From a virus: a stretch of 30,669 nucleotides of DNA. Below the pieces are notes generated by a model. The model searched no databases and had not been told where the DNA came from. It was given only the letters and a program-made list of their open reading frames with translations. The stretch lies in IMG/VR virus record IMGVR_UViG_3300009068_002081, positions 1 to 30,669 of that record. One strand, given 5' to 3'. The position numbers and the translations under genes were made by a program. Shown piece after piece: positions 1-23,731 of this stretch; the stretch's first letter is position 1; the number at the start of each line of letters is the position of its first letter.

Positions 1-2
1 AT

Positions 3-356
3 TCAATGACCGATGCCTGGCTAAGTCAAATTGCCTATTGTATTGATGTGTGGGAACGAATTGAAATTGATGTTGTTCACGATCGAGCCGAATTAACCGG
101 CAACAACAAAGATGATAATTATAAACATAGAGAGCTACTAGAAGGCAATCCCAACAATCCTAGAGATTTCCATCATCCTCGCATGACACTAGATCGAATG
201 AAAGAATGTGATCAACTTTCTAAATACTTGAAAACCCAAGGAAACAATTCCGATTGGTGGGAACGTGTTAAAAATAGCAAACAAGATCCTTGGGAAAAAC
301 TCAAAGTAAACGACATCAATGGGCAAATGCGTCAGTTTCAATTGAAAGCACAATAA
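3..356 (+). CDS. Hypothetical protein, probably the C-terminal part of a gene cut by the window edge
   Basis: The reading frame is open from the first bases of the window, and the first ATG (position 6) has no visible ribosome binding site because the edge is only five bases away. I therefore read it as a probable fragment. The visible 116 residues are hydrophilic, rich in Asn, Asp, Lys and Trp, with no membrane segment and no motif I recognise. It ends two bases before the GTG start of the RmlB-like gene, so it probably belongs to the same transcript. Function unknown. Confidence 0.55.
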   Translation, partial: SMTDAWLSQIAYCIDVWERIEIDVVHDRAELTGNNKDDNYKHRELLEGNPNNPRDFHHPRMTLDRMKECDQLSKYLKTQGNNSDWWERVKNSKQDPWEKLKVNDINGQMRQFQLKAQ

Positions 357-358
357 CT

Positions 359-1309
359 GTGAAAAAAATTGTATATGTGACTGGGTGTCTGGGGTTTATA
401 GGAGTGCATGTCACCCGTCGGTGTTTGGAACAAGGCTGGTATGTGATTGGTGTGGACAAAGGCACCTATGCCAGTAATTTTGATTTCTTAGACGAGTTCC
501 AAAAATACAGCACATTTAAATTCATACACAAAGATATCAATGATCTTGACCGACTGTATGACTGCGATTATATCATAAACACAGCTGCCGAAACTCATGT
601 GGACAATTCAATCATGAGCTCAGATGTTTTTATTCGTAGCAACATCAACGGAGTACATCGCATACTAGAATTAATACAACAACAGCCTGTTCACCGGCAA
701 CCGACCTTGTTGCATTTTTCAACCGACGAGGTTTATGGAGACATTGATTCGGGTGCCCATACCGAAACTGACTTGTTAAAACCCAGTAATCCTTACTCGG
801 CATCCAAGGCAGCAGCTGACATGTTGGTCTTGGCCTGGTCTAGAACATTTGGCATCAAGTATGTGATTGTGCGGCCCACCAACAACTACGGTATTGGTCA
901 ATATGTTGAAAAACTCATACCCAAAAGCGTTAAATTTCTTGAACTGGGCAAATTGATTGATTTACACAATCACGGCAGTCCGGTACGAACCTGGTTGCAT
1001 GCCAAGGACACAGCCAATGCTGTAATATCCATTATTGATTCTGGATGTACCAACGAAATATTCAACATCAGTGGCAATATTGAATTGCCCAATTGCGAAG
1101 TAATTAAAAAAATACTACATCTATATTACAGAGTTGATCATGACAACAACTGGGAAACGTTTACTACACCCAGCAAAAGACAAGGGCAAGATGTTCGCTA
1201 TGCAATTGATGACAGCAAGTTAAAAAAATTAGGTTGGGTACCTGTAGCCGACTTTGACCAAGAACTGGCCAACGTGGTCGAATACTACAGGAATAATTTT
1301 GTATGGTAA
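359..1309 (+). CDS. rfbB: RmlB-like NDP-glucose 4,6-dehydratase (extended SDR)
   Basis: An extended short-chain dehydrogenase/reductase of about 316 aa. The Rossmann motif TGCLGFIG lies at residues 8-15, the NAD-binding Asp is at 33, AAETHVD is at 76-82, STDEVYG is at 121-127 (with the DE pair typical of 4,6-dehydratases), and the catalytic YSASK is at 146-150. The later PTNNYG and EKLIP segments are also typical of RmlB. The likely reaction is NDP-glucose to NDP-4-keto-6-deoxyglucose; dTDP or CDP cannot be decided from sequence. I chose the GTG at 359 because it places the Rossmann motif at the normal distance from the N-terminus and has GAAAG 10 bases upstream; the longer frame from TTG 290 only adds residues overlapping the preceding gene. 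It is about 40 residues shorter than typical RmlB. The next gene overlaps its stop (ATGGTAA). Confidence 0.88.
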   Translation: MKKIVYVTGCLGFIGVHVTRRCLEQGWYVIGVDKGTYASNFDFLDEFQKYSTFKFIHKDINDLDRLYDCDYIINTAAETHVDNSIMSSDVFIRSNINGVHRILELIQQQPVHRQPTLLHFSTDEVYGDIDSGAHTETDLLKPSNPYSASKAAADMLVLAWSRTFGIKYVIVRPTNNYGIGQYVEKLIPKSVKFLELGKLIDLHNHGSPVRTWLHAKDTANAVISIIDSGCTNEIFNISGNIELPNCEVIKKILHLYYRVDHDNNWETFTTPSKRQGQDVRYAIDDSKLKKLGWVPVADFDQELANVVEYYRNNFVW

Positions 1310-2028
1310 AGAACTATCTAGTATGTTCAGTTCGCCCCATATCCGAGAACTGGATGAATCAGGACAGCTCACAACTGCATTTGGACTATCAAGAAATGTA
1401 TCGTTTAAGATTGGCCAGCTTTAAACACTTTGTAAAAGAACCGTTTGAAGCTGTGACATGGACTGACCCTGCTACCAATAGCGATACCTGCACTTACCAA
1501 AATTGGTTGGATATTAAAGAACTGTGGCACAAGGAACCTTGTAACATATTCTGGGCCGGTGCCGACACACTTATGATTCAGCCTACAAACTTGTTTTCTG
1601 ACAGGTTCTCTCAATATCGATTGTTCAATTATACTGACCCAAGGAGTTATGGAGATTTTGCACACTATTTCAATGACGACATACAATATTATCCACATAC
1701 CATGTCAAGTGATGTGTGGAAATTAGGTGAAGAGTGGTTGACTCAAAGAGAAACACACCCAGATCGTAATTGGGGGTTTGATCAGTTAAGACACAATGCC
1801 ATGTTCTGGAGTCAAGATATTCCTGACTCTGACAGACTGCATCCAGAGATGGCCTATCAAGCAATGAATTTAAGAAGCATAAATCCAGATGTAATAGGTC
1901 AACACAACGGGTGGAATTCTTTGTCTATAGAGCAGGCTCATATACTACATTTTCATGGTAGCCGTGGCAGCCAGGCAGTAATAAACATCATGAAAGAAAT
2001 TTGCAATCAACTAGGTATTCAAACATGA
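1303..2028 (+). CDS. Putative glycosyltransferase-like protein
   Basis: 241 aa, soluble, no signal peptide. The one recognisable piece is the segment FWAGADTLMIQPT near residues 83-95, which resembles the AD-containing nucleotide-sugar site of GT-A glycosyltransferases that carry a D-A-D core; here the first Asp is replaced (WAGADT). The protein is rich in aromatic residues. The start overlaps the rfbB stop by seven bases and its own stop overlaps the next start (ATGA), so it is translated within the sugar operon. The glycosyltransferase role is an inference from one motif and from context. Confidence 0.5.
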   Translation: MVKNYLVCSVRPISENWMNQDSSQLHLDYQEMYRLRLASFKHFVKEPFEAVTWTDPATNSDTCTYQNWLDIKELWHKEPCNIFWAGADTLMIQPTNLFSDRFSQYRLFNYTDPRSYGDFAHYFNDDIQYYPHTMSSDVWKLGEEWLTQRETHPDRNWGFDQLRHNAMFWSQDIPDSDRLHPEMAYQAMNLRSINPDVIGQHNGWNSLSIEQAHILHFHGSRGSQAVINIMKEICNQLGIQT

Positions 2029-3344
2029 AACAAATATTAGAAGATATTAAAAAATACATCGATGCTAAACACGCAGACAAGACCTGGGTAGCTGGCAAAG
2101 ATTTTGTTAACTATGCTGGTCCGCATTTTACATCCGACGAGTATGTGGCAGCTGCCGAAGCACTACTAAATGGCTGGCTGGTAATGGGCAACAAGAGTCT
2201 ACGCTTTGAACAAAAGTTCCCCAAAGAATTTGGTAAGACTCGCGGAGTGCTAACAAACTCAGGCAGTAGTGCCAACCTGCTGATGATGGCCGCAATGAAA
2301 AGCAAGCGTGGCCATAACTTTCCATCGGGTACTAAAGTATTGATGCCCATTGCAGGCTTTCCAACCACACTTAATCCAACCTTACAAAATGGATTTACGC
2401 CAGTGTTCTGCGATATTGAAATTGATACCTTGAACATTGATCTAGATCAAGCAGAACAGATACTTGCCGCCGATCCAGACATTAAGATTATAACCTTTGC
2501 ACATGTGTTGGGTAACCCGCCCAATATGGATCGTGTGATGGAATTAGTTAATCGACACAATTTAATTTTGTTAGAAGATTGTTGTGACGGATTGGGTACT
2601 ACCTATGATGGAAAGCCACTAGGTAGTTTTGGTGAGATGGCAAGTTGCAGTTTTTATCCGGCGCATCATATGACCATGGGCGAAGGCGGATTTGTAGCAA
2701 TGAACGATCCACAGCAAGAAATCATTGTGCGTAGTCTACGTGAATGGGGCCGTGGATGTTATTGCGTAGGGCCCGAGGCCAACAAGTTAAAATGTGGCAC
2801 ATGCGGCAAGCGATTTAATGAGTGGATTCCAGAGATGCCAGATCAGATATTTGATCACAAATATGTCTACGACGAGATTGGATATAATCTAAAGCCAATT
2901 GAATTACAAGCCGCAATGGGTCTAGAGCAAATTAAGAAATTGCCAGAGATTCACACTTTACGTCAGCGCAACTACAATCTGTTGTTTGCTATCTATGAAA
3001 AGTACGAAGAGTTCTTCCACTTGCCACGTGCTCGTTACAAAGCAGATGTAAGCTGGTTTGCATTTCCGTTAACAATTCGCGAAGGTGCTCCGTTTACACG
3101 CATGGACATTGTTGACTACTTGGAAGAAAATCTAATTCAAACTCGTCCGTACTTTGCCGGTAACATCATGTTACAACCTGCATATTCACACTTGATGAAT
3201 CCTGCAACAGCACGTGATGACTTTCCTGTTGCTACATTTACAATGAAGAACACCTACTTCCATGGATGCAGTCCGGTTATTACTCCAGAGCAGATTTCCT
3301 ACATTGGAGAGAAAGTTGACGGATTTATGAGTTTATACCTATGA
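2025..3344 (+). CDS. rfbH: RfbH/E1-type NDP-4-keto-6-deoxyglucose 3-dehydrase
   Basis: DegT/DnrJ/EryC1-fold protein of 439 aa. The segment SFYPAHHMTMGEGG puts His214 where aminotransferases carry the PLP lysine, the hallmark of PMP-dependent E1 dehydrases. The iron-sulfur cysteines are present: Cys187 (in LEDCCDG), Cys245 and Cys247 (GRGCYCVG) and Cys260 (GTCGKRF), matching the E1 pattern except for an insertion of about five residues carrying an extra Cys257. The family removes the C3 hydroxyl of CDP-4-keto-6-deoxyglucose to make 3,6-dideoxy sugars, together with a reductase (E3) not seen here. ATG 2025 overlaps the previous stop as ATGA; an upstream TTG at 2001 is less likely. The substrate is inferred from the family. 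Confidence 0.9.
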   Translation: MKQILEDIKKYIDAKHADKTWVAGKDFVNYAGPHFTSDEYVAAAEALLNGWLVMGNKSLRFEQKFPKEFGKTRGVLTNSGSSANLLMMAAMKSKRGHNFPSGTKVLMPIAGFPTTLNPTLQNGFTPVFCDIEIDTLNIDLDQAEQILAADPDIKIITFAHVLGNPPNMDRVMELVNRHNLILLEDCCDGLGTTYDGKPLGSFGEMASCSFYPAHHMTMGEGGFVAMNDPQQEIIVRSLREWGRGCYCVGPEANKLKCGTCGKRFNEWIPEMPDQIFDHKYVYDEIGYNLKPIELQAAMGLEQIKKLPEIHTLRQRNYNLLFAIYEKYEEFFHLPRARYKADVSWFAFPLTIREGAPFTRMDIVDYLEENLIQTRPYFAGNIMLQPAYSHLMNPATARDDFPVATFTMKNTYFHGCSPVITPEQISYIGEKVDGFMSLYL

Positions 3345-4507
3345 AAGGGTTAAGCCAGGTAACGTCTAATATCGACGGACAGCCAATGTTCAAGTATCTA
3401 GACATGGCCAGGGAGTTAGAAGCCAAAGGTCAACATCTTATCCACATGGAGATAGGTGAGCCAGACTTTGACACCCCTAAGAATGTTACCTGGGCAGCCG
3501 TTCAATCTTTATCCAACGGAGAAACACACTACGGTAGTAGTTTTGGTCTACAAGAATTTAGAGAGGCTGTGCAGTTTGCTACAGAACGCAGTAGAGGATT
3601 CCGTCCTGACTTAGATCAAGTACTTATTACTCCAGGTGCCAATATTGCTATCTACTATGCTGTGTTCTGTTTAGTTGATCCAGGCTTTGAAGTTATTGTT
3701 CCAGATCCTGGGTTCAGCACATATTACAGCAACATCAAAATGTGTGGTGCTGTGCCTGTGCGTGTGCCACTGAAAGAAGAAAACGAATTCCGTATGAGCC
3801 CAGACGACATCGAAGCCGCTATTACAGATAAGACACGACTGATTATTATTAACAGTCCGCAAAATCCCACAGGCAGTGTGCTTACCACTGATGAAGTTAA
3901 ACGCATTTATGAAATTGCCAAGAAGCATGACATATACATTTACAGTGATGAGATTTATGCACGTATGAACTATGAGCCAATTGGTTTTGCAAGTCCAAGC
4001 ATTTATGATCACTGTAAGGAACATGTTATCCTTAGCAATGGGTTTAGTAAAGCATTTGCTATGACAGGATGGAGATTAGGAACATTGATTGGACCTGCCA
4101 ATGTCATCGAACGCATGGCGGCACTACTACAAACTACATCAAGTTGTGTCAGTACGTTTGTCCAACGTGCTGGAATTGAAGCTATTCGCGGCAGTCAAGA
4201 AACAGTTACAAATATGATGGCCGAATATCGGGCACGTAGAGACCTGCTGGTCGACGGGTTAAATCGTGTCAACGGCGTTCGCTGTCTCAAGCCAGGTGGC
4301 GCATTTTACGTATTTCCTAATATCACAGGAACAGGACTATCGAGTGACCAAGTTGTTGAAAAGTTAATGGCTGCTGGAGTAGTGACCTTGCCCGGACATT
4401 GTTTCGGAGAACACGGTGAGGACTATATTAGATTGTGTTATGCCACTAGTCGTAAAAACATTCAAGAAGGTCTGAATAGAATTTATAAAGCATTGGGAAC
4501 AAAATGA
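3341..4507 (+). CDS. Class I/II PLP-dependent aminotransferase
   Basis: 388 aa, full length for the aspartate-aminotransferase fold type I family. Visible marks are IGEPDFDTP near residue 38, the NSPQNPTG motif near 170, YSDEIYARM near 200, the PLP lysine Lys237 in SNGFSKAFAMTGWRLG, and a substrate-carboxylate-binding Arg near the C-terminus (YIRLCYAT). Sugar aminotransferases normally belong to the DegT fold, so this enzyme more likely acts on an amino acid or oxo acid. In this operon it could supply the 2-oxo acid donor for the thiamine-diphosphate enzyme encoded directly downstream (inference). ATGA overlaps join it to both neighbours. Confidence 0.9.
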   Translation: MKGLSQVTSNIDGQPMFKYLDMARELEAKGQHLIHMEIGEPDFDTPKNVTWAAVQSLSNGETHYGSSFGLQEFREAVQFATERSRGFRPDLDQVLITPGANIAIYYAVFCLVDPGFEVIVPDPGFSTYYSNIKMCGAVPVRVPLKEENEFRMSPDDIEAAITDKTRLIIINSPQNPTGSVLTTDEVKRIYEIAKKHDIYIYSDEIYARMNYEPIGFASPSIYDHCKEHVILSNGFSKAFAMTGWRLGTLIGPANVIERMAALLQTTSSCVSTFVQRAGIEAIRGSQETVTNMMAEYRARRDLLVDGLNRVNGVRCLKPGGAFYVFPNITGTGLSSDQVVEKLMAAGVVTLPGHCFGEHGEDYIRLCYATSRKNIQEGLNRIYKALGTK

Positions 4508-5511
4508 GAGTATGTGATTGGATCGCTGATTATCTAAAATCAATTGGAGTTGAACGTGTACACGGATTAATGGGCGGTGGCGCAAGTGGACTTAATGATG
4601 GATTCATCAAACAAGGTATGCCCTATATCTGTTATCATCACGAGCAAGGTGCAGGACATTCTGCAATTGGCGAAAGCAAGTTCACTGGCAAAATTGCAGT
4701 AGTTAATCCCACAACAGGTTGTGCAGGTACTAACTGTGCAACATCAGTTTTAAATGCATGGCAAGACAGTGTACCTGTTTTGTTCTTGTCAGGCAATGTT
4801 AGACTACCAACTTGTAGCGGACACATTAACAAAAAGAACAACATCAACATTCGTAAGTATGGTATTCAAGAACACCATGTTGTTGACACCTACAAGTCAA
4901 TGACCAAATTAAGTTGTTTTGTTGACAATGTACAAGACGTAGCATACACAATTCAATATGCAGTACACTTGGCAACAACTGGTCGTCCTGGGCCTGTATG
5001 GATTGATATTCCAGGAGATATTCAAACAGCACAGATGCCCGAGAACTATAAAGAGTATACCGCTACCAAGTTAGTCGAGACGTTATCAAGCTATGATCGT
5101 GTCAAACAAGCAATTGCCCGAGCAAAACGTCCTATTGTGTTAGCGGGTTACGGCATTCGTCAAAGCAACACAGTCGACGACTTTGTTAATTTTATTGAGC
5201 ATTACCAGATTCCTTATGTCAGTACCTACGGAGCAAGAGATTACACAGCCGATGATCACAAATTAAGCATTGGTGCTGTGGGTATCAAAGGAAGTCGTGC
5301 AGGCAACTTTGCTATGCAGAACGCAGACTTGTTGCTTATCTTGGGTAGCAGTCTTGGATCAAGTGTAATTGGATACGATCCTGCACAGTTTAGTCCTGCG
5401 AGTTATAAAATTATTATAGACTTAGATGTTGACGAATTGAAAAAAGATATTGTTAAAATTGATGAAAAGTATCATGTCAATTTAGAAAACTTCTTTAGGA
5501 GCATGGTATGA
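4504..5511 (+). CDS. Acetolactate-synthase-like ThDP enzyme, N-terminal half (PYR and central domains)
   Basis: 335 aa. The N-terminal pyrimidine-binding (PYR) domain includes the catalytic Glu47 in YHHEQGAGHSA, which activates the cofactor, and the GCAGTNCATSV loop. A central dihydrooxoacid-type domain follows from about residue 190 (RAKRPIVLAGYGIR, then LLLILGSSLGSSV). The ThDP-binding PP domain is missing here and is encoded by the next gene. The two products together are 580 aa, the normal length of a fused acetolactate synthase. In sugar operons such enzymes, for example YerE of yersiniose biosynthesis, attach a two-carbon branch from pyruvate to a 4-keto-6-deoxy sugar. Context (RmlB-like plus RfbH) fits this, but the actual reaction is inferred. 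Confidence 0.88.
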   Translation: MRVCDWIADYLKSIGVERVHGLMGGGASGLNDGFIKQGMPYICYHHEQGAGHSAIGESKFTGKIAVVNPTTGCAGTNCATSVLNAWQDSVPVLFLSGNVRLPTCSGHINKKNNINIRKYGIQEHHVVDTYKSMTKLSCFVDNVQDVAYTIQYAVHLATTGRPGPVWIDIPGDIQTAQMPENYKEYTATKLVETLSSYDRVKQAIARAKRPIVLAGYGIRQSNTVDDFVNFIEHYQIPYVSTYGARDYTADDHKLSIGAVGIKGSRAGNFAMQNADLLLILGSSLGSSVIGYDPAQFSPASYKIIIDLDVDELKKDIVKIDEKYHVNLENFFRSMV

Positions 5512-6245
5512 ACCAACAATGGATAGACAAATGCAATTACTGGAAAGCTATCTGGCCTGTAATGCAAGACGAATATTGTGCTAACAACAATGATTACTCA
5601 CTAAACATATATGCTGTGCTGGATGCTATTAACAAACATAGTCGTCCCGAAGACATCTTAATGGGCGATGCTGGTAGTATTAGCTACGCAGGACCTGTTG
5701 CTCTAAATGCCAAGCCAGGTCAACGTTTTATTTTTAGTCCAGCACAGGCAGATATGGGATGGGCATTGCCTGCGGCTATTGGTGTTGCTATGGCCAGTAA
5801 TCAACCTATCATCAGTATCATAGGTGATGGTAGTTTTATGAGCAATATCCAAGAACTTGCTACAGTCAAGCAACATGAACTGAATATTAAATTTGTTATA
5901 CTCAACAATGCAGGTTATTTGAGTATCAAAAACACACAGACCAAGTACTTTCAAGGTCGTGTACACGGTACCAGTTCAGAAACCGGGTTATGGTTTCCTA
6001 ACTTTATGAACATTGCTTCTGCATTTGGCATGGCCTATGCTGATATGCGATTAGCTTCAGACCTAGACAAGTTTCCAGAGATACTTGCTAAACCAGGTCC
6101 TTGTATTATTGACTGCCGTTGCCATGGTGATCAAGAAATTCTTCCAGCGCAGGCATTAAAGGATGGAAAACAAGCAGGCCTACACGACATGACTCCGTTC
6201 CTTAGCGATGAAGAACTTGCTGGTGAAATGATTATTAAAATTTAA
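5508..6245 (+). CDS. Acetolactate-synthase-like ThDP enzyme, C-terminal half (PP domain)
   Basis: 245 aa. This is the pyrophosphate-binding domain of a ThDP-dependent decarboxylase or carboligase: the metal and ThDP motif starts with GDG at residues 106-108 and ends with NN at 133-134. The segment QADMGWALPAAIGVA at 80-94 is typical of this domain. It has its own Shine-Dalgarno AGGAG at 5497-5501, six bases before the ATG, which itself overlaps the preceding stop. The split falls at the boundary between the central and PP domains and lies in a different frame (offset of two), so this looks like a functional gene fission, not decay. The two products should form a complex. Confidence 0.88.
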   Translation: MNQQWIDKCNYWKAIWPVMQDEYCANNNDYSLNIYAVLDAINKHSRPEDILMGDAGSISYAGPVALNAKPGQRFIFSPAQADMGWALPAAIGVAMASNQPIISIIGDGSFMSNIQELATVKQHELNIKFVILNNAGYLSIKNTQTKYFQGRVHGTSSETGLWFPNFMNIASAFGMAYADMRLASDLDKFPEILAKPGPCIIDCRCHGDQEILPAQALKDGKQAGLHDMTPFLSDEELAGEMIIKI

Positions 6246-6250
6246 ACACC

Positions 6251-6934
6251 ATGACAGACAATATTCACAAAACAATTCCAGGTCTAGAAAACTTAGTTGA
6301 ATTAAGAGATAATTCAGAGTTTCTAGAATTAAAAAATCTGTGGTGGCCTCAATACGATCAGGGCATGTGGAATTACATGCATAGACACCGCATAGAACCA
6401 GAATTTTTTGATTTGCTAATGACCCATGTTGATGCTACCAATATCATGGTACAGGCCGGTGGTAACTGTGGACAGTATGTAAAGCAGTTTAGTCAACGAT
6501 TTGATACTGTGTATACATTTGAACCAGATCCATTGAATTTTTTGTGCTTGACTTTAAACTGTGGTAATAACGTGATTAAAACGCAGGCCTGTCTGGGCAA
6601 CGATAACAAATTTGTAAGTATCGATAGAACAAGTGATGCTGGAGCCATTCATGTTACTGGACAAGGTAATGTACCTACTATGCGTATTGATGACATGCAT
6701 TTACCAAGTTGCGATCTTATACAGTTAGACATTGAAGGCTATGAACTATTTGCGTTGCAAGGAGCTCAACGTACCATTGAACAATATCATCCTGTAATCA
6801 TGATAGAATGGTACGAGCCGTGGGCTGAACGATATGGAACCAATCAAAAAATACGCGACGAGTTTTTTAACAATATAGGATACAAAAAAGTGCTAGTCAA
6901 AGATAACGATATAATCTATAAGCGCCTAAAATGA
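6251..6934 (+). CDS. FkbM-family SAM-dependent methyltransferase
   Basis: 227 aa. The SAM-binding glycine-rich segment VQAGGNCGQY is at about 67-76, the acidic EPDP that contacts the adenosine is at 91-94, and the diagnostic FkbM motif LDIEGYE is at 159-165, followed by MIEWYEPW. The family mostly O-methylates sugars and polyketides, so methylation of the sugar or glycan made by this operon is likely. It begins five bases after the ThDP gene stop, with no strong ribosome binding site, and ends in an ATGA overlap with the next gene. The exact acceptor cannot be told from sequence. Confidence 0.87.
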   Translation: MTDNIHKTIPGLENLVELRDNSEFLELKNLWWPQYDQGMWNYMHRHRIEPEFFDLLMTHVDATNIMVQAGGNCGQYVKQFSQRFDTVYTFEPDPLNFLCLTLNCGNNVIKTQACLGNDNKFVSIDRTSDAGAIHVTGQGNVPTMRIDDMHLPSCDLIQLDIEGYELFALQGAQRTIEQYHPVIMIEWYEPWAERYGTNQKIRDEFFNNIGYKKVLVKDNDIIYKRLK

Positions 6935-7869
6935 AAACAGCACTAATTACCGGAGCCAATGGATTTATTGGTCACTACTTAGTAGAAGAATTTTTAAAAG
7001 ATCACCATGTGATCTGCGTAGTACGACCAGGTTCGGTTAATATGGAACGAATCGATCACGTGCTTGATCGTGTTACTATAATTGAACACGACATTAAAAA
7101 TTCTTGTAGGCGCTTGCCAACAGCAGATATTATATTACATGCTGGTGCCAATCCTAGTTCAGCTGACAGCTTGAGTGATCCTACAGCATCCGTCATGGAC
7201 AATGTGCTGGGTACATTAAACTTGTTGGAACATGCCCGTCATACTGGAGTTGAAAGATTTGTATATTATAGTAGTGCTGAAGTATTTGGTCCTATATCTA
7301 TTGGTCAAGACAGTCAAGCAACCGACGCCTACAACAGCAATAGTCCTTATGCAGCCGGCAAAGCCGCTGGAGAAGAACTGTGCCTGGCCTATGCTAACTC
7401 GTTCAATGTTCCTGTGAGCATTATACACATCAACAACACCTTTGGTCTACGTTGCCAAAGCAATCGCTTGCCTGTGATCATTGTACGCAAATTACTCAAC
7501 AATGAAACCCTAGATATACATGTAGGACCCAGTGAGTTAATTGGTGGTCGTCGTTGGTTCTATGCCGGCGATGTGGCCAGTCATACTCGATTTATATTAG
7601 AAACACAATCCGCCCGTTGTGAAAAATGGAACAGTGCTGGATCAAGATTTATCGATAATCTTGAATTTGCTCAAACTATTGCTCGTTTAATGAATTGTGA
7701 ATTGTTATACAAATTGGTTCCTGTTGATCGTCCTGGGCATGACTTATGTTTTAGCGTCGATCCTGGAAAATTATATAAACTAGGGTGGCGAGCACCAAAA
7801 ACGTTCGAAGAACGTTTAACTGAAACAGTTGATTGGTATCAAAATAACCCTGAATGGCTCGCACGATAG
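6931..7869 (+). CDS. NAD-dependent epimerase/dehydratase (extended SDR)
   Basis: 312 aa. The Rossmann motif TGANGFIG is at 7-14, HAGANPSSADS is at 70-80, YSSAEVFG is at 113-120, the catalytic pair YAAGK is at 140-144, and the C-terminal substrate domain ends in GWRAPKTFEERLTETVDWY, a typical sugar-nucleotide epimerase tail. It could act as the C4 or branch ketoreductase (YerF-like role) or as an epimerase; sequence alone does not decide. It is the last gene of the sugar operon: its stop is directly followed by a new promoter at 7870. No terminator is visible between the two units. Confidence 0.87.
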   Translation: MKTALITGANGFIGHYLVEEFLKDHHVICVVRPGSVNMERIDHVLDRVTIIEHDIKNSCRRLPTADIILHAGANPSSADSLSDPTASVMDNVLGTLNLLEHARHTGVERFVYYSSAEVFGPISIGQDSQATDAYNSNSPYAAGKAAGEELCLAYANSFNVPVSIIHINNTFGLRCQSNRLPVIIVRKLLNNETLDIHVGPSELIGGRRWFYAGDVASHTRFILETQSARCEKWNSAGSRFIDNLEFAQTIARLMNCELLYKLVPVDRPGHDLCFSVDPGKLYKLGWRAPKTFEERLTETVDWYQNNPEWLAR

Positions 7870-7899
7870 TTGACAAACTGTGGTGAATTGTTGTACAAT
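7870..7899 (+). promoter_or_regulatory. Sigma-70 type promoter placed for a leaderless mRNA
   Basis: TTGACA (7870-7875), an 18-base spacer and TACAAT (7894-7899). The ATG of the phosphoribosyltransferase starts six bases after the -10 box, so transcription would begin at or next to the start codon. No Shine-Dalgarno is seen. Confidence 0.75.
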
Positions 7900-7904
7900 A
7901 GCAT

Positions 7905-8471
7905 ATGAAGAAAATCTATTATACCTGGCGAGATGTTGAGCGTCAAACACAAGAAATCATACGTCAAATACAGTTAGATGACTGGCGTCCTGACTATGTG
8001 GTAGGACTTACCCGTGGCGGGTTGGTTCCTGGTAATCTTATTAGCCAATACTTAGAAGTTCCAATGGAATGTCTTAAAGTAAGTCTACGTGATGATCATT
8101 CTGAACCCGAAAGCAACTTGTGGATGGCCACAGATGCTTATGGATACGAGTCAGCTGATAAAGATCCTAATGTGTGGATTGAAACATATCCAGGAGGCAA
8201 TAGTATCACTGGTCGCAAAAATATTCTTATTGTAGATGATATTAACGATTCGGGTGCTACATTGAATTATATTAAACAAGACTGGCAATCAAGTTGTTTT
8301 CCTAATGATCCTGTGTGGAATGATATTTGGAGTAACAATGTTCGTGTTGCTACTTTAGTAGATAATGAATCTAGTGCTAGTGAATTAAGTGTTAGTTATA
8401 GTGCCATCGGCCTAAATAAAGCTGAAGAAGATTGTTGGATTGTGTTCCCTTGGGAAGATTGGTGGAAATGA
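7905..8471 (+). CDS. Phosphoribosyltransferase (type I PRTase fold)
   Basis: 188 aa. The PRPP-binding motif NILIVDDINDSGAT is at 106-119, and the early VVGLTRGGLVPGN segment at 32-44 matches the pyrophosphate loop of xanthine/hypoxanthine phosphoribosyltransferases (Gpt-like). A longer, Trp-rich insert of about 40 residues separates the two motifs. The nucleobase is not clear. The gene starts almost at the predicted transcription start and leads an operon that also encodes QueE and NadE, which suggests nucleotide or cofactor metabolism. The next gene overlaps its stop as ATGA. Confidence 0.85.
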   Translation: MKKIYYTWRDVERQTQEIIRQIQLDDWRPDYVVGLTRGGLVPGNLISQYLEVPMECLKVSLRDDHSEPESNLWMATDAYGYESADKDPNVWIETYPGGNSITGRKNILIVDDINDSGATLNYIKQDWQSSCFPNDPVWNDIWSNNVRVATLVDNESSASELSVSYSAIGLNKAEEDCWIVFPWEDWWK

Positions 8472-16039: not shown

Positions 16040-16067
16040 CTTAGTTTTGCATTTTAGAAAAAAATGC

Positions 16068-16412
16068 ATGGTGGGTCGGACTGTTAGAATCGTAGTAGTA
16101 AAGAATTGTTGTAATTCCTTTGTAGTGAAGGCACTGTGGACCCGGGGGCGGAGCCCGGCATCTCCACCGGAGGGTATTTGTTAAAGTATTCTGCGTTGGG
16201 GATGAATTAGTTTCGACATGGTGAGATAGCGAAAGAGGCAACACGGTAGGCGATGACCGTTAATCAAGCAAAACTCGTAAATGCCAAAGCATCTACAGGC
16301 GAAGTAACTGTTTCTGGTAAGAACGTTAAGTTCTCTGCTCGTACAGCGAAAGCCGAATCTTTCGCAGTTTAATCACCGCGATAGGGTAGGATATACCTCG
16401 TAACAGAAACAA
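16068..16412 (+). ncRNA. ssrA: Circularly permuted two-piece tmRNA
   Basis: The acceptor half lies before the coding half. The acceptor piece ends with a T-arm (CCGGG 16142-16146 / CCCGG 16154-16158, loop GGCGGAG) and CATCTCC (16159-16165), then ACC. The coding piece begins at 16198 with GGGGATG, which pairs perfectly (one G-U) with CATCTCC, followed by the conserved tmRNA segment TTTCGACA. CATGGTG (16217-16223) pairs with CACTGTG (16132-16138), forming helix P2, extended by GCGAA/TTTGT. A pseudoknot-type stem ACGGT/ACCGT follows. The 29 bases between the pieces would be cut out. CCA is not encoded in full (ACCG). Two-piece tmRNAs are known in alpha- and betaproteobacteria and some cyanobacteria. 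It rescues stalled ribosomes. The 5' end is approximate. Confidence 0.85.
16277..16372 (+). other. Proteolysis-tag reading frame of the tmRNA
   Basis: Aligning the CTC just upstream with the usual context of the resume codon gives GTA (16277) as resume codon and a 31-residue tag that begins VNAKASTGEV and ends AKAESFAV before TAA. It is far longer than the usual ten or so residues and ends in Ala-Val, not Ala-Ala. The exact resume codon is uncertain. Confidence 0.55.
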
Positions 16413-16416
16413 CCAG

Positions 16417-16441
16417 AACCCGCTTCGGCGGGTTTCTTTTT
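16417..16441 (+). terminator. Intrinsic terminator of the tmRNA
   Basis: Perfect seven-base-pair stem AACCCGC / GCGGGTT with a TTCG tetraloop, followed by TCTTTTT. Confidence 0.93.
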
Positions 16442-16507
16442 ATGCATAGTTAACTTCTAAAAGTACCAAGAAACCTTGCATTTTTTGCATGCCATTAGTG
16501 TAAACCA

Positions 16508-16561: not shown

Positions 16562-17293
16562 ATGAAAAAATTATTATTAGCATTATTCGCAATGGCTAGC
16601 ATTACCGCGGCTCACGCTCAGGTATCTGGCAATTTAGGTTTGACAAGTGACTACCGTTTCCGCGGCATCAGTCAATCCCAAAATGCTCCTGCTGTCCAAG
16701 GCGGTGTTGACTATGCCCACAGCAGTGGTTTTTACGTTGGTAACTGGAATAGTAGTGTAAGTTCACAAGTTTACACAAATGGTTCTGGTGTAGAGAGTGA
16801 TCTCTATGCAGGATACAAGAAGGACATCTACAAAGGTATTACTATTGATATCGGTACATACAACTACTTCTATCCACGTGCTACTACTTCAGCCAAGACA
16901 GGTTCTAACTATGATACATACGAAGGTTTTGTTGGTGTAAGCTACAAAGACCTAGTGGGTGCCAAGTACAGTCGTACATTGGGTGCTGGTTACTTCGGTA
17001 CTGCTAATGCACAAGGTACAACTTATACACAAGCTGATGCCAAGTTGCCAGTTCCTGCAATCAAGAACTTGAGCGTAGTGGCCCACGCTGGCCGTACCAA
17101 TGTTGCTAATAACGCCACATTAGACTACAGTGATTACAATGCTGGCATTGCTTATGCATTGCCACAAGGTTGGGAAGGTACCGTCAAGTACTATACCAAT
17201 ACAAGCACTGGCACTTTTGAATCCGCTAACACTGTTAACGGTCAGAAACTTTACAGAAACGCTACTGTGTTTACTGTAGCCAAATCATTCTAA
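16562..17293 (+). CDS. Outer-membrane beta-barrel protein, Gcw_chp/TorF-like
   Basis: 243 aa. A classical signal peptide (MKKLLLALFAMASITAAHA, cleavage after residue 19) leads into VSGNLGLTSDYRFRGISQS, the typical start of the Gcw_chp family of proteobacterial outer-membrane proteins. The mature part alternates polar and aromatic residues with repeated Gly/Tyr/Ser segments and ends with a terminal Phe (VAKSF), the usual signal for barrel insertion. It is an independent transcription unit: terminator before, TAAATA motif plus Shine-Dalgarno at the start, strong terminator behind. A barrel in a phage might alter the host surface or block re-infection (inference). Confidence 0.85.
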   Translation: MKKLLLALFAMASITAAHAQVSGNLGLTSDYRFRGISQSQNAPAVQGGVDYAHSSGFYVGNWNSSVSSQVYTNGSGVESDLYAGYKKDIYKGITIDIGTYNYFYPRATTSAKTGSNYDTYEGFVGVSYKDLVGAKYSRTLGAGYFGTANAQGTTYTQADAKLPVPAIKNLSVVAHAGRTNVANNATLDYSDYNAGIAYALPQGWEGTVKYYTNTSTGTFESANTVNGQKLYRNATVFTVAKSF

Positions 17294-17354: not shown

Positions 17355-18830
17355 ATGTGTGGAATCCTTTTAGTTAAAAGTAAAAATACAATAACGATAG
17401 AACAGCACCTAAATGCTTTTTTAAAATTACGTAGCCGTGGACCGGACTTCTGTAGATACCAGTACGAGAATAATATATTTGTTGCACAATCAGTGCTACA
17501 CATTACAGGGTCGGCAGACTACTATCATCAAGAACACCCAAACTTTTTAGCCTACAATGGTGAAATATATAATTTTAAAAAGTTTGGTGCATATAGTAAT
17601 GATATAGAATTTGTGGATGAATGTATCAACAATGATATTTCTAAGTTAGCTGACGGATGGGGTCCGTGGGCATTCGCTTGGACAGACAAACATACTGTGC
17701 TGTATGCTAGCGATCCACAAGGTGAAAAAACTTTATATCAATATCAAGACAACAATATATTAGTTGTGTGTAGTGAGATTGCTCCTATACTTGATTATGT
17801 CAATACACAAAAAGTCTACAACGAATACATTAGTAGACATTGGGCTTTGGTAGATCAAACTCCATATTTAGGTATTACTAGAGTTGTTGCTGGTCAATTA
17901 TATCAAGACGGACACGTTATAAAAAATATTGATAACATATGGGCTTGGATTAAACCCGCAGAATATAAAGATATTAATGAAGCCTATGAAGAGTTTGCCA
18001 ACAAATGGGCTCATGTTACTGAATTAATGACCCCTGCATGTCCAGCGGCTTTAACCTACTCTGGTGGACTTGACAGCAGTATCATACTCAGTCATATAGA
18101 CAATCTTGAATTATACACTACTAACATGCTAGGTAAGGATCCTATTGTGGATCACGTTAATGATTTTCTAACCGATAACGAGTGGCTAAGATTACACAAT
18201 ATCTCAGTTAACAAACAACAATGGGCACAGGCATTTACGGATGTTCTTGCTCGCTCTCAACTGCCTGTACAAAGTTGGAGTTTTGTTGGACAATGGATTG
18301 TTAGTGAACAATGCAAGGAACGAGTATTGTTTACTGGTGTTGGGGCGGATGAGTTATTTGGTGGTTACGACGTTTATCAAAGACTAACCTATACAACGGG
18401 CCAATCGTCTAGCCCGTATAGTCGTGGATGCAGTGCTCTCTTGTGGCAACGTTGTTTGTCTGCGTACGACCAACATGCTGGGCAGGCCACATTATTGGCT
18501 GATTATCTATATCAAATTGCCGGCTGTGATAGCCGAGGTATTGATGTGATTGCTGGATCCTGGGGTATAGAAGCAAGGAATCCGTTTTTGGCTAAACCCG
18601 TTATGCAATTAGCATTAAGTTTACCATTTGAATATAAAGTAGGCACAATCCCCAAACCCTTAATAAGACGTTTGTTTTTAGAACGATGGGCAGAAAAAGA
18701 TATCTTGCCTAAAAAAGGATTTACTGGACATTGTAACGACAGCTTACCGTGGTTAGATGTTGAAATAGAAACAACCAACGATAGAGATCAAGACTGGAAA
18801 CAAATTGTGATCAAGAGTTTTTATAACTAG
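17355..18830 (+). CDS. asnB: Glutamine-hydrolysing asparagine synthase-like amidotransferase
   Basis: 491 aa, two domains. The N-terminal class II glutaminase has the nucleophile Cys2 (MCGI), RSRGPD at 26-31 and YNGEIYN at 67-73. The C-terminal synthetase has the PP-loop TYSGGLDSS (234-242), GVGADELFGGY near 325 and the family's substrate region. It is shorter than bacterial AsnB (about 550 aa). It transfers ammonia from glutamine to a carboxylate activated with ATP; the acceptor could be aspartate or a sugar uronic acid, as in WbpS/WbtH-like O-antigen enzymes. No Shine-Dalgarno is seen before ATG 17355. Its 3' end overlaps the opposing gene by 20 bases. Confidence 0.88.
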   Translation: MCGILLVKSKNTITIEQHLNAFLKLRSRGPDFCRYQYENNIFVAQSVLHITGSADYYHQEHPNFLAYNGEIYNFKKFGAYSNDIEFVDECINNDISKLADGWGPWAFAWTDKHTVLYASDPQGEKTLYQYQDNNILVVCSEIAPILDYVNTQKVYNEYISRHWALVDQTPYLGITRVVAGQLYQDGHVIKNIDNIWAWIKPAEYKDINEAYEEFANKWAHVTELMTPACPAALTYSGGLDSSIILSHIDNLELYTTNMLGKDPIVDHVNDFLTDNEWLRLHNISVNKQQWAQAFTDVLARSQLPVQSWSFVGQWIVSEQCKERVLFTGVGADELFGGYDVYQRLTYTTGQSSSPYSRGCSALLWQRCLSAYDQHAGQATLLADYLYQIAGCDSRGIDVIAGSWGIEARNPFLAKPVMQLALSLPFEYKVGTIPKPLIRRLFLERWAEKDILPKKGFTGHCNDSLPWLDVEIETTNDRDQDWKQIVIKSFYN

Positions 18831-21761: not shown

Positions 21762-21835
21762 GGGTTGCTAGTTTAGTGGCAGAACAGCGGTCTCCAAAAC
21801 CGCGGGTAGAGGTTCGATTCCTTTGCGACCCGCCA
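21762..21835 (+). tRNA. tRNA-Trp (CCA)
   Basis: 74 nt with encoded CCA. Acceptor stem GGGTTGC / GCGACCC, anticodon stem GCGGT / ACCGC, loop CTCCAAA, T-loop TTCGATT. Confidence 0.95.
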
Positions 21836-21842
21836 ATCCTTA

Positions 21843-21916
21843 GCGGGATTCGTATAATGGTATTACCCCAGCCTTCCAAGCTGACGACGAGAGTTCGATT
21901 CTCTTATCCCGCTCCA
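21843..21916 (+). tRNA. tRNA-Gly (TCC)
   Basis: 74 nt with encoded CCA. Acceptor GCGGGAT / ATCCCGC, anticodon loop CTTCCAA, T-loop TTCGATT. Confidence 0.95.
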
Positions 21917-21922
21917 AACAAC

Positions 21923-22000
21923 AGTAAGGTGGCAGAGAGGCCCAATGCAAGGGACTGCAAATCCCTAAAACCGTCGGTTCGAATCCGACCCTTACTTCCA
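21923..22000 (+). tRNA. tRNA-Cys (GCA)
   Basis: 78 nt with encoded CCA. Acceptor AGTAAGG / CCTTACT, anticodon stem AGGGA / TCCCT with loop CTGCAAA, T-loop TTCGAAT. Confidence 0.93.
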
Positions 22001-22022
22001 AACATAAAGAAAGGAGGCATAT

Positions 22023-22613
22023 ATGCCTAGTGTATTTTTAGTAAGCGATACGCACTTTGGTCACAAAGGTGTGTGCCACTTTACCCGTAACGACGGAGTA
22101 ACAAAATTGCGACCATTTGATACTCCAGAAGAAATGGACGAGTTTATGGTCAAGGCGTGGAACGAACGTGTGCGTCCAAACGATAAAGTTTATCACTTAG
22201 GAGATGTGGTTATTAATCGTCGAGCATTAAAGATTATGAGTAGACTCAACGGTGACAAGGTGCTTATCCGTGGTAACCACGACATTTTTCCGGATGTGGA
22301 ATATCGTGAATACTTCCGTGAGCTTAGAGCTTACCATGTAATGAATGGAATGATTCTTAGTCACATTCCCGTACATCCCGAAAGCCTTGGTCGTTTTGGT
22401 GTAAACATTCACGGTCATACCCATGCCAATCGTGTCATGCGTGATCTTGCTGTATGTGGGCGCGACAATGTGATTGATACAAGATACCACTGTGTTTGCG
22501 TTGAGCAAACCGATTTCGCTCCTATCTTGTTCGAAGATGTGATCGAACGGATTCGAGCGGAGGGTGGTGTAATAGGTTTTCAAAACGGTAATGGTACTAC
22601 ACAAGTAACCTAA
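22023..22613 (+). CDS. Calcineurin-like metallophosphoesterase
   Basis: 196 aa. The dinuclear-metal motifs are in order: SDTHFGH (Asp9, His11), LGD (Asp61), RGNHD at 83-87, SHIP near 113 and HGHTH at 130-134. It should hydrolyse phosphomono- or diesters; the substrate is unknown, and phage members of this family vary. A strong Shine-Dalgarno (AAAGGAGG) precedes ATG 22023. It lies inside the tRNA cluster, with tRNAs on both sides, and is likely co-transcribed with them. Confidence 0.9.
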   Translation: MPSVFLVSDTHFGHKGVCHFTRNDGVTKLRPFDTPEEMDEFMVKAWNERVRPNDKVYHLGDVVINRRALKIMSRLNGDKVLIRGNHDIFPDVEYREYFRELRAYHVMNGMILSHIPVHPESLGRFGVNIHGHTHANRVMRDLAVCGRDNVIDTRYHCVCVEQTDFAPILFEDVIERIRAEGGVIGFQNGNGTTQVT

Positions 22614-22619
22614 AGTTTG

Positions 22620-22696
22620 ACCCTGGTAGACAAATTGGTAAAGTCACCGATCCAAGAAATCGGAATATGGAGGTCCGAATCCTCCCCAGGGTACCA
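22620..22696 (+). tRNA. tRNA-like gene, apparent anticodon AAG, unusual loops
   Basis: 77 nt with encoded CCA. Acceptor ACCCTGG / CCAGGGT, D stem GAC / GTC, anticodon stem CCGAT / ATCGG, T stem GGAGG / CCTCC: all stems pair. The anticodon loop is CCAAGAA, with C instead of the universal T33, and the T-loop is TCCGAAT, with C instead of T55. The formal anticodon AAG reads Leu codons, but the short variable loop is not that of a Leu tRNA. It may be a tRNA with altered function. Confidence 0.65.
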
Positions 22697-22725
22697 TTGA
22701 CACAGTAATATTTTTAATGTATAAT
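22697..22725 (+). promoter_or_regulatory. Consensus sigma-70 promoter before the omega-like gene
   Basis: TTGACA (22697-22702), exactly 17 bases, TATAAT (22720-22725), starting one base after the tRNA-like gene. A perfect consensus. The leader is about 17 bases and contains AGGAG. Confidence 0.92.
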
Positions 22726-22748
22726 ATACATTTACAACAGGAGATATC

Positions 22749-22976
22749 ATGAAACCAAGAATCGCAAGTCGTGGCCCAGCAATTGATATGGAACAATGTG
22801 TACGTCAAGCTGGTGGCGGACGATATGACATGGTCTTAATTGGTGCTCAACGCCTACGTGAGCTCAAACGAATTCACCGCGAGGATACTACACGATATGT
22901 TACTTGTGTAGATGCACTCAACGAAATTCAAGCTGGACAAGTTAATCTAGTAGACTACTTGGCAAAGGTAAAATAA
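22749..22976 (+). CDS. rpoZ: RNA polymerase omega subunit-like protein
   Basis: 75 aa, the size of bacterial omega. The helix RYDMVLIGAQRLRELK (25-40) parallels the conserved RFDLVLVAARRARQ of RpoZ, and VTCVDALNEIQAGQV (51-65) parallels the T-x-x-A-L-x-E-I-x-x-G segment that follows it. In bacteria omega wraps the C-terminus of the beta' subunit, assists assembly and contributes to the ppGpp site. Two extra cysteines are present. The strong promoter and good Shine-Dalgarno (AGGAG) suggest high early expression. A phage copy might replace host omega and change polymerase behaviour (inference). The homology is from reading, not from a profile search. Confidence 0.7.
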   Translation: MKPRIASRGPAIDMEQCVRQAGGGRYDMVLIGAQRLRELKRIHREDTTRYVTCVDALNEIQAGQVNLVDYLAKVK

Positions 22977-22977
22977 C

Positions 22978-23139
22978 ATGGCAAAGCCACAACAAACATC
23001 AAGTGAACTAGGTCGCACACTAGCAGGACAATGGACCAAAAGCGAAAAACGCGAGTATGCTAGCCGTAGTATCATGGAGTCCAATCAACGCACCAAAGCT
23101 ATTAACAAAGCTATCAAGCAACAACAATTCATGAAGTAA
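22978..23139 (+). CDS. Small basic hypothetical protein
   Basis: 53 aa, Lys/Gln-rich, helical. It starts one base after the omega-like gene stop, so it is probably co-expressed with it. It ends just before tRNA-Glu. No family recognised; the charge would suit nucleic-acid or polymerase contact, which is only a guess. Confidence 0.62.
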   Translation: MAKPQQTSSELGRTLAGQWTKSEKREYASRSIMESNQRTKAINKAIKQQQFMK

Positions 23140-23146
23140 AGGGTAG

Positions 23147-23221
23147 GCACCCTTCGTCTATCGGTTAGGACTCCAGGTTTTCATCCTGGCAAGAGGAGTT
23201 CGATTCTCCTAGGGTGTACCA
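23147..23221 (+). tRNA. tRNA-Glu (TTC)
   Basis: 75 nt with encoded CCA. Acceptor GCACCCT / AGGGTGT, anticodon stem CCAGG / CCTGG with loop TTTTCAT, T-loop TTCGATT. Confidence 0.94.
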
Positions 23222-23228
23222 AGTTATA

Positions 23229-23321
23229 GGAGAGCTGGCCGAGCGGTCGAAGGCACCCGCCTACTAAGCGGGCATGGATCTAAACAGTCCATCTGGGGTT
23301 CGAATCCCTAGCTCTCCGCCA
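23229..23321 (+). tRNA. tRNA-Ser with anticodon ACT
   Basis: 93 nt, type II with a long variable arm (ATGGA / TCCAT), encoded CCA. Acceptor GGAGAGC / GCTCTCC, anticodon stem CCCGC / GCGGG with loop CTACTAA, anticodon ACT. Bacterial Ser tRNAs for AGY codons normally carry GCT. Confidence 0.92.
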
Positions 23322-23322
23322 A

Positions 23323-23397
23323 GGGCCGTTAGCTTAATGGTAAAGCGTTCGACTCATAATCGAAGGAGTGATAGTTCAATTCTATCACGGCCCACCA
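23323..23397 (+). tRNA. tRNA with CAT anticodon, probably tRNA-Ile2
   Basis: 75 nt with encoded CCA. Acceptor GGGCCGT / ACGGCCC, anticodon stem TTCGA / TCGAA, loop CTCATAA. The CGACTCATAATCG core is typical of tRNA-Ile2, whose C34 is changed to lysidine, and less so of elongator Met. Confidence 0.88.
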
Positions 23398-23452
23398 AAA
23401 ATTTCTTATGTTAGTTGACGCAAATAAGTAAAACACAACACAAGGAAATAAC

Positions 23453-23650
23453 ATGGCAACTAAAAAAACATTACAGCGCAAGAAACCTGGATTTACCAAA
23501 GCTGGCGTAGCTAAAATTGTTAGCATGAGCGTTAAGCAACTTGTTATTGAGTTAGATCGTACACAAAAGAAAAAAGTTAAAGCCAAAATTAATCGTAGGC
23601 TTAGTGATTTAAAATATGTTGCACCCGTAGTAGAAGCAGTAACAGAATAA
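23453..23650 (+). CDS. Small basic hypothetical protein
   Basis: 65 aa with a very Lys/Arg-rich N-terminus (MATKKTLQRKKPG) and a helix around 18-50. A Shine-Dalgarno (CAAGGAAA) precedes ATG 23453, and CAAATAAG about 32 bases upstream resembles the other late-type motifs here. It lies between tRNA-Ile2 and tRNA-Thr. Possibly nucleic-acid binding because of its charge; no family recognised. Confidence 0.68.
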   Translation: MATKKTLQRKKPGFTKAGVAKIVSMSVKQLVIELDRTQKKKVKAKINRRLSDLKYVAPVVEAVTE

Positions 23651-23655
23651 TCTGT

Positions 23656-23731
23656 GCCCCTATAGCTCAGCTGGTAGAGCGCAGCATTTGTAATGCTGAT
23701 GTCCCGTGTTCGAATCATGGTGGGGGCACCA
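23656..23731 (+). tRNA. tRNA-Thr (TGT)
   Basis: 76 nt with encoded CCA. Acceptor GCCCCTA / TGGGGGC (one G-T pair), anticodon stem CAGCA / TGCTG with loop TTTGTAA, T stem CCGTG / CATGG with loop TTCGAAT. Confidence 0.94.

Follow-up and report, generated by a model that had tools for sequence, protein, structure and literature searches.

The virus record IMGVR_UViG_3300009068_002081 of IMG/VR carries, at positions 359–7869 of the plus strand, a sugar operon of a large aquatic phage; this operon likely encodes a phage form of the yersiniose/erwiniose-type route to C4-branched deoxy sugars. We analyzed the whole stretch of 30,669 bases, called the window here; the record itself is a fragment. An RmlB-like nucleoside diphosphate (NDP)-hexose 4,6-dehydratase, the 3-dehydrase RfbH, and a YerE-like thiamine diphosphate (ThDP) enzyme split into the genes ThN and ThC are encoded together. 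They correspond to the C-branching core of yersiniose/erwiniose-type synthesis, as an earlier reading of this DNA (the original prediction) had recognized. According to the open reading frame (ORF) listing and family scans, the gene order is rmlB-like, GTx, rfbH, AT1, ThN, ThC, fkbM, and SDR (short-chain dehydrogenase/reductase), and most neighbors are coupled by 4-bp stop/start overlaps. The features are as follows:

359–1309, plus strand: rmlB-like NDP-hexose 4,6-dehydratase with GTG start (TIGR01181; STDEV and YxxxK motifs)
1303–2028, plus strand: putative glycosyltransferase GTx, 241 amino acids, predicted GT-A fold
2025–3344, plus strand: RfbH/E1 with ATG start, an iron-sulfur (Fe-S) 3-dehydrase of the pyridoxal/pyridoxamine phosphate (PLP/PMP) type (NF011936)
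3341–4507, plus strand: class-I aminotransferase AT1 (PF00155, 2.7e-70)
4504–5511, plus strand: ThN, N half of the YerE-like ThDP enzyme, Pyr and middle domain (PF02776, 5e-26; PF00205, 3e-27)
5508–6245, plus strand: ThC, C half of the YerE-like ThDP enzyme, PP domain (PF02775, 1.8e-31)
6251–6934, plus strand: FkbM-family methyltransferase (PF05050, 8.5e-15; TIGR01444 above cut-off)
6931–7869, plus strand: extended SDR, candidate ketoreductase/epimerase (PF01370, 2.5e-38; SSAEV instead of TDEV, YAAGK)
1–356, plus strand: C-terminal piece of a GT2-type glycosyltransferase truncated by the window start (ORF 3–356; by reading, it matches the C-terminus of a ~276-amino-acid protein in L092 and L082)
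3345–7904, no strand: segment exchanged relative to relatives with other ThDP modules (blastn)

The coupled genes for the RmlB-like enzyme, RfbH, the split ThDP enzyme, SDR, FkbM, and the putative glycosyltransferase all lie on the plus strand where the original prediction had placed them; it had, however, omitted a complete gene, AT1, between rfbH and the ThDP pair. Relatives carry a whole GT2-type glycosyltransferase where the window apparently holds only its end (first 356 bases). The same gene order was found again in dozens of viral contigs. Comparison of the window with four relatives yielded dN/dS (nonsynonymous to synonymous substitution) ratios of ~0.02–0.1 for rmlB, rfbH, AT1, ThN, ThC, and sdr; the values for fkbM and GTx were somewhat above those of the core genes (0.08–0.2). 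A terminase was present in 10 of 16 related large records, indicating that the cassette belongs to real tailed phages. We conclude that the cassette is real, under selection, and widespread in phages.

The window RfbH clears the curated NCBIfam model NF011936 (436.4 bits, cut-off 423), and its closest solved structure is Yersinia E1 (3bcx, 323 bits, compared to 178 bits for ColD). In its motif SFYPAHHMT, a His replaces the PLP-binding Lys. This replacement had been predicted, but as residue 214; counted from the ATG at 2025, it is His215. Wherever the motif could be located in phage RfbH proteins, 150 in total, the site His was present. The cysteine positions that hold the Fe-S cluster in E1 are likewise conserved (EDCC, GRGCYC, and CGKRF, the last one spaced wider than in E1). 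The window dehydratase scores 293 bits with the dTDP-glucose 4,6-dehydratase model TIGR01181 (cut-off 365) and 70 bits with the CDP-glucose model (cut-off 278). It has STDEV at 121 and YSASK at 146, and its relatives in the PDB are dTDP-glucose dehydratases. Judged by these matches, it appears rather dTDP-like, unlike the CDP type of the classical yersiniose route. The CDP-glucose route is also not matched otherwise, as a domain search of the 30.7-kb fragment record detected no NTP_transferase domain.

ThN comprises the Pfam domains TPP_enzyme_N and M, and ThC the domain TPP_enzyme_C. The catalytic Glu47 lies in the HHEQ motif of ThN, and the ThDP motif GDGSFM...NN in ThC. In a comparison with PDB sequences, the joined halves reached 264 bits with 8rph and 201 bits with the top acetolactate synthase. 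The entry 8rph is JanthE, a characterized YerE-like enzyme (PMC12188165). In L057, L063, L065, L066, and L067, both halves form a single gene. Thus, ThN and ThC are parts of one enzyme. In a maximum likelihood tree of 120 ThDP sequences, the five acetolactate synthase references were split from a set comprising JanthE, 70 bacterial relatives, and the phage pair with a support of 99 (Shimodaira–Hasegawa-like approximate likelihood ratio test, SH-aLRT), and the split phage enzymes formed one group with three fused phage enzymes (support 100). A grouping with plain acetolactate synthase, which the original prediction had named as refuting, was not found; the pair grouped with JanthE and RfbH-linked bacterial enzymes. 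The naturally fused homologue L057 was modeled with a predicted local distance difference test score (pLDDT) of 89. Its model matched JanthE with a Z of 48.2 over 584 residues and acetohydroxyacid synthase with 47.2 over 556 residues, a near tie in Z. On the sequence level, ThN+ThC lies nearer to the YerE-like group than to biosynthetic acetolactate synthase.

An assembly error splitting one ThDP gene is ruled out, since the split recurs in many contigs and a few relatives are fused. Pairs of the sulfopyruvate decarboxylase type are small and have no middle domain; this assignment was set aside because ThN carries one. A tblastn search of INPHARED with ThN matched 37 records, all with less than 60% identity. 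Six of these matches were opened: three were Salmonella genome contigs, two were "phages" (Acinetobacter, Staphylococcus) with an ilv-operon layout, and one was unannotated. The entries AFYI01000001/3/4, CAKLQH020000017, and MT880872 represent bacterial-looking ilv operons inside the phage collection.

A phage-specific ThN profile retrieved no bacterial relative in a scan of 84,980 species; a broader profile yielded 80 bacterial loci. Among the nearest ones are L159, L160, L162, L168, and L170, in which rfbH, an AT1 homologue (47–60% identity), and a ThDP gene occur together. The order in L162 and L168 is rfbF-rfbG-rfbH-AT1-ThDP, and the genes 5' of rfbH score above the curated thresholds of the models for glucose-1-phosphate cytidylyltransferase and CDP-glucose 4,6-dehydratase; RfbH exceeds its own in L162. 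Such rfbF-rfbG-rfbH-AT1-ThDP-SDR clusters (for example, Methylophilaceae LSUCC0401, L162) share the order rfbH-AT1-ThDP with the phages and belong to a neighboring ThDP clade, but they contain CDP-glucose genes and an unsplit ThDP gene. L157, L158, and L163 have an acylating acetaldehyde dehydrogenase and a 4-hydroxy-2-oxovalerate aldolase in place of AT1. An Fe-S RfbH was nearby in 30 of 47 well-flanked bacterial ThDP loci.

From the observed gene set, intact motifs, purifying selection, phylogeny, linkage, and module exchange, we infer the catalytic steps, donor acid, nucleotide, and acceptor of the following route. NDP-glucose, probably dTDP-glucose supplied via host RmlA, would be converted by the RmlB-like enzyme into a 4-keto-6-deoxy sugar. 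RfbH would then remove the 3-hydroxyl group, giving a 4-keto-3,6-dideoxy sugar; the host would provide the reducing power through ferredoxin/flavodoxin or a reductase. AT1 would turn an amino acid into an alpha-keto acid, which ThN+ThC would decarboxylate, joining the resulting acyl group to the ketone at C4 to form a branched tertiary alcohol. The SDR may reduce the branch ketone or epimerize, and FkbM may O-methylate. GTx would finally attach the sugar to its acceptor, for which a virion component or DNA is the most likely candidate. The product would be a C4-branched 3,6-dideoxy sugar, probably on dTDP, derived from an amino-acid-derived keto acid.

The donor acid is suggested by AT1. It retains the PLP Lys and the position equivalent to a carboxylate-binding Arg, which in related aminotransferases binds the amino-acid carboxylate. 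An amino acid is therefore favored as its substrate. In phages, 50 loci contained AT1 homologues with more than 45% identity; each of them also had ThN/ThC, and none was a transketolase-, E1-, or fused-only locus (counted by locus, some on a shared contig; 4 of the 50 also had an E1-like match). A later count by distinct genes revealed three fused-type genes with AT1 nearby, which we take as fused members of the ThN family. Bacterial AT1 homologues, 47–62% identical, adjoin rfbH and/or the ThDP gene. Furthermore, 30 of 50 fused phage genes, mostly JanthE-like and many with the CDG motif, are accompanied by acetaldehyde dehydrogenase and hydroxyoxovalerate aldolase (AcDH+HOA), which could make 4-hydroxy-2-oxo acids of the kind used by ErwE and JanthE. 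ErwE favors such acids as donors (PMC12247030), and JanthE accepts 4-hydroxy-2-oxovalerate (PMC12188165). AT1 is probably the supplier of the alpha-keto acid donor, and each ThDP enzyme may be accompanied by the enzyme producing its keto acid.

A serious, though less likely, alternative is a true yersiniose pathway, in which pyruvate is the donor, the two-carbon acetyl branch later becomes hydroxyethyl, and AT1 is either unrelated or acts later, for example, by aminating the branch ketone. YerE prefers pyruvate as its donor, and transamination is among the later modifications of branched sugars (PMC12247030). The SDR could reduce an acetyl branch. Moreover, about half of the ThN loci are devoid of AT1, which is thus not needed by every member. 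However, AT1 lies between rfbH and the ThDP gene in phages and in distant bacteria, its conserved Arg position is not needed for a sugar ketone as substrate, and the keto-acid-capable AcDH+HOA accompany the ThDP gene in other clusters. The two-carbon branch of the original prediction was not established; the conserved AT1 suggests an amino-acid-derived keto acid as donor, and relatives carry other keto-acid-forming modules.

Further genes adjoining ThDP genes represent possible additional keto-acid or donor modules. These are an HpaI-like aldolase (L352, 12054–12764), a NeuB-like (L379, 11291–12781) and a NeuB/PseI-like gene (L403, 8920–9993), and an AroB-related gene (L373, 12402–13403).

GTx gave no family match in domain scans. 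Its AlphaFold2 model (pLDDT 92.6) is nearest in fold to UGGT, glycogenin, and the PBCV-1 capsid glycosyltransferase, with Z values of 14–15 (Foldseek/VIA). Neither GtrA (PF04138) nor Wzx-type (PF01943) flippase domains were detected in 15 related virus records, which are possibly fragments. Because of the GT-A fold and the missing flippase domains in these records, we favor, with modest confidence, a cytoplasmic acceptor, virion protein or DNA, over host lipopolysaccharide (LPS). Remodeling of host LPS, leading to seroconversion or superinfection exclusion, is rather unlikely. FkbM and glycosyltransferases are common in surface polysaccharide clusters, and yersiniose and erwiniose are found in bacterial surface polysaccharides (PMC12247030). 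On the other hand, GTx resembles soluble GT-A enzymes, among them that of PBCV-1, and a flippase was not seen in the 15 records.

The position behind rfbH is occupied by different ThDP enzymes in different phages. Viral contigs were scanned for the best 80 matches per query, so that all counts are samples; at least 593 viral stretches contained a confirmed RfbH. Among 72 loci sampled by RfbH alone (distinct genes with at least 6 kb of flank on both sides), 62 had a ThDP module no more than 8.5 kb away, in every case on the strand of rfbH. These were fused acetolactate synthase/YerE-like (27), split transketolase (14), split E1-type (12), split YerE-like (7), and mixed (2). Starting from distinct, well-flanked ThDP genes, with all loci pooled, including those fetched by RfbH, we found RfbH within 8.5 kb of 44/44 ThN, 31/33 transketolase, 17/22 E1, and 39/50 fused phage genes. 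Thus, the slot after rfbH can be filled by four or more kinds of ThDP module: fused, split YerE-like, split transketolase, and split E1-type. The alternative pairs consist of Transketolase_N-like plus Transket_pyr and of E1_dh plus Transket_pyr domains in Pfam.

In blastn comparisons, DNA homology between the window and L245 (transketolase), L293 and L089 (E1), and L082 (fused) ends at the rfbH stop codon, 3344/3345; for L282 (E1), it likewise ends at 3345. Homology resumes at fkbM (~6440) for the transketolase type and at a phosphoribosyltransferase gene (~7898–7905) for the E1 and fused types. These sharp breakpoints represent a clean cassette exchange. Only three ThDP superfamilies are known with ketone acceptors, linked to branched sugars (PMC12247030), and all three are present in the phage slot. 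The interchangeable modules beside RfbH suggest that phages diversify an uncommon sugar coat or tag through the exchange of a single enzyme module. We tentatively extend this to a broader proposal, which we regard as quite possible but short of probable: aquatic phages would exchange carboligase cassettes of three superfamilies, each with its own keto-acid supply genes, behind rfbH/rmlB, and phages that are otherwise alike would so display different branched sugars, a phage counterpart of O-antigen variation acting via virion or DNA glycosylation. In L251 and L252, two distinct split transketolase pairs flank an rmlB-like gene in one cluster, and in L281, an E1-type and a transketolase-type pair are adjacent, without RfbH nearby.

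RfbH and the ThDP enzyme might also act on separate molecules, yielding an unbranched 3,6-dideoxy sugar and a distinct small molecule, which we consider improbable. No ThDP module was found within 8.5 kb in 10 of the 72 RfbH loci, and 11 of the 50 fused-type genes had rmlB but no RfbH within that distance. The two enzymes are thus not obligate partners. Yet RfbH and the ThDP enzyme are adjacent in the window, where the reading frames of the operon overlap, the acceptor of YerE and ErwE is an RfbH-type product (PMC12247030), and three ThDP superfamilies converge on one position behind rfbH. It is highly improbable that the pair is a plain acetolactate synthase or another keto-acid enzyme captured beside sugar genes by chance: its fold is common to acetolactate synthases and the best NCBIfam matches of ThN are acetolactate synthase models, but these lie far under cut-off (for the N half alone, 180 vs. 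738 and 178 vs. 538 bits), no ilv genes were seen among the window ORFs, transketolase-like and E1-like enzymes take the slot elsewhere, and scores, tree, and RfbH linkage together speak against the plain enzyme.

Besides the loci devoid of AT1, RfbH, or a ThDP module, several observations weigh against the proposed branched-sugar pathway. The RmlB-like enzyme and the SDR are both under the curated equivalog cut-offs. The references in the ThDP tree comprise one YerE-like enzyme (JanthE) and five acetolactate synthases. Three fused phage enzymes of the L082 type fell on the acetolactate synthase side, which weakens the case for that class. No nucleotidylyltransferase adjoins the window cassette, and the E3-type domains PF00175 and PF00111 were not found in 17 related virus records of up to 338 kb, possibly incomplete. 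The electron supply of RfbH is therefore assumed.

The original prediction saw neither E3 nor a nucleotidylyltransferase in this DNA, and this holds true for the window. Flavodoxin domains were not found in 15 related, possibly incomplete virus records, and ferredoxin domains, sought in related virus records, were not found either. As a control, the L162 genome has a single PF00175 match ~740 kb away from the RfbH cluster, and the L168 genome has none. Thus, these bacteria, too, do not regularly encode an E3 next to RfbH. One relative, L392, has an RmlA-like gene, under the curated cut-off, next to an RmlD-like gene and tens of kb away from its RfbH. E3 and nucleotidylyltransferase are probably host functions. 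An LdpA-like Fe-S protein is encoded near the ThDP gene in L351 (12205–13362) and L352 (13506–14663; NF045992, 141 bits, under cut-off) and might pass electrons to RfbH in phages without E3.

The phage cassette shares a 4,6-dehydratase, an RfbH/E1 with His and Fe-S ligands, a YerE-like ThDP enzyme, and an SDR with the yersiniose A pathway of Yersinia pseudotuberculosis (rfbF/G, E1/E3, YerE, YerF). It differs in its dTDP-like dehydratase, the lack of rfbF and E3, the split ThDP enzyme, and the additional AT1 and FkbM. ErwE of erwiniose synthesis (Pectobacterium) and JanthE (Janthinobacterium) are YerE-like and take keto acids with longer chains than that of pyruvate. Among solved structures, JanthE is nearest to the window enzyme, and the phage relatives L112 and L136 share its CDG motif. 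In contrast to JanthE, the window enzyme consists of two halves with the ordinary GDG and has AT1 as its partner; its fused homologue L057 shows ~29% identity to JanthE in the structural alignment. Two-subunit or split ThDP enzymes proposed to branch keto sugars comprise the pairs AviB1/AviB2 and Pau11/Pau12 and the split transketolases of miharamycin and amipurimycin synthesis. Their phage counterparts are the E1-type pair (L102) and the split transketolase (L106) in the slot behind rfbH. The former systems belong to Streptomyces antibiotic clusters, whereas the phage pairs are short (~200 plus 160–180 amino acids).

C-branched deoxy sugars have been described in surface polysaccharides of bacteria and in antibiotics, and a 2025 review of tertiary-alcohol-forming ThDP enzymes mentions viruses only as unexplored, with possible surprises (PMC12247030). 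The gene rfbH has been named among viral metabolic genes in two surveys. A branched-sugar pathway in phages was not reported in the literature searched, which lacked most subscription journals. The chemistry itself has precedent, but that literature describes neither its occurrence in phages nor a split YerE-like enzyme nor the swapping of carboligase modules. Given RfbH in at least 593 viral stretches and three ThDP superfamilies in one position, phages would, if the proposed pathway is true, use and diversify branched-sugar chemistry. The split YerE-like enzymes are new candidates for ketone-accepting carboligases, as are the transketolases, whose ketone acceptance is still unproven. This raises the question of what phages tag with branched sugars, and against which host defense or receptor.

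Outside the operon, the window carries a permuted transfer-messenger RNA (tmRNA) of betaproteobacterial type at 16057–16463 on the plus strand (RF04321, 123 bits; RF01850, 117 bits; ARAGORN agrees), which points to a betaproteobacterial host. All further features are on the same strand. Directly 3' of the tmRNA, 16562–17293 encodes an outer-membrane-type Gcw_chp protein (PF09694, 1.5e-46). It is followed by an asparagine synthase-like protein (17355–18830), an array of eight tRNAs for Trp, Gly, Cys, Leu, Glu, Ser, Met, and Thr (21762–23731), and a radical S-adenosylmethionine (SAM) protein (24040–25626). TctC, the substrate-binding receptor of a tripartite tricarboxylate transporter and an odd phage cargo, is encoded at 25901–26857 (PF03401, 1.4e-29). 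The adjoining 375-amino-acid protein (26858–27985) gave no Pfam or PHROG match and reads like an N-type ATP pyrophosphatase.

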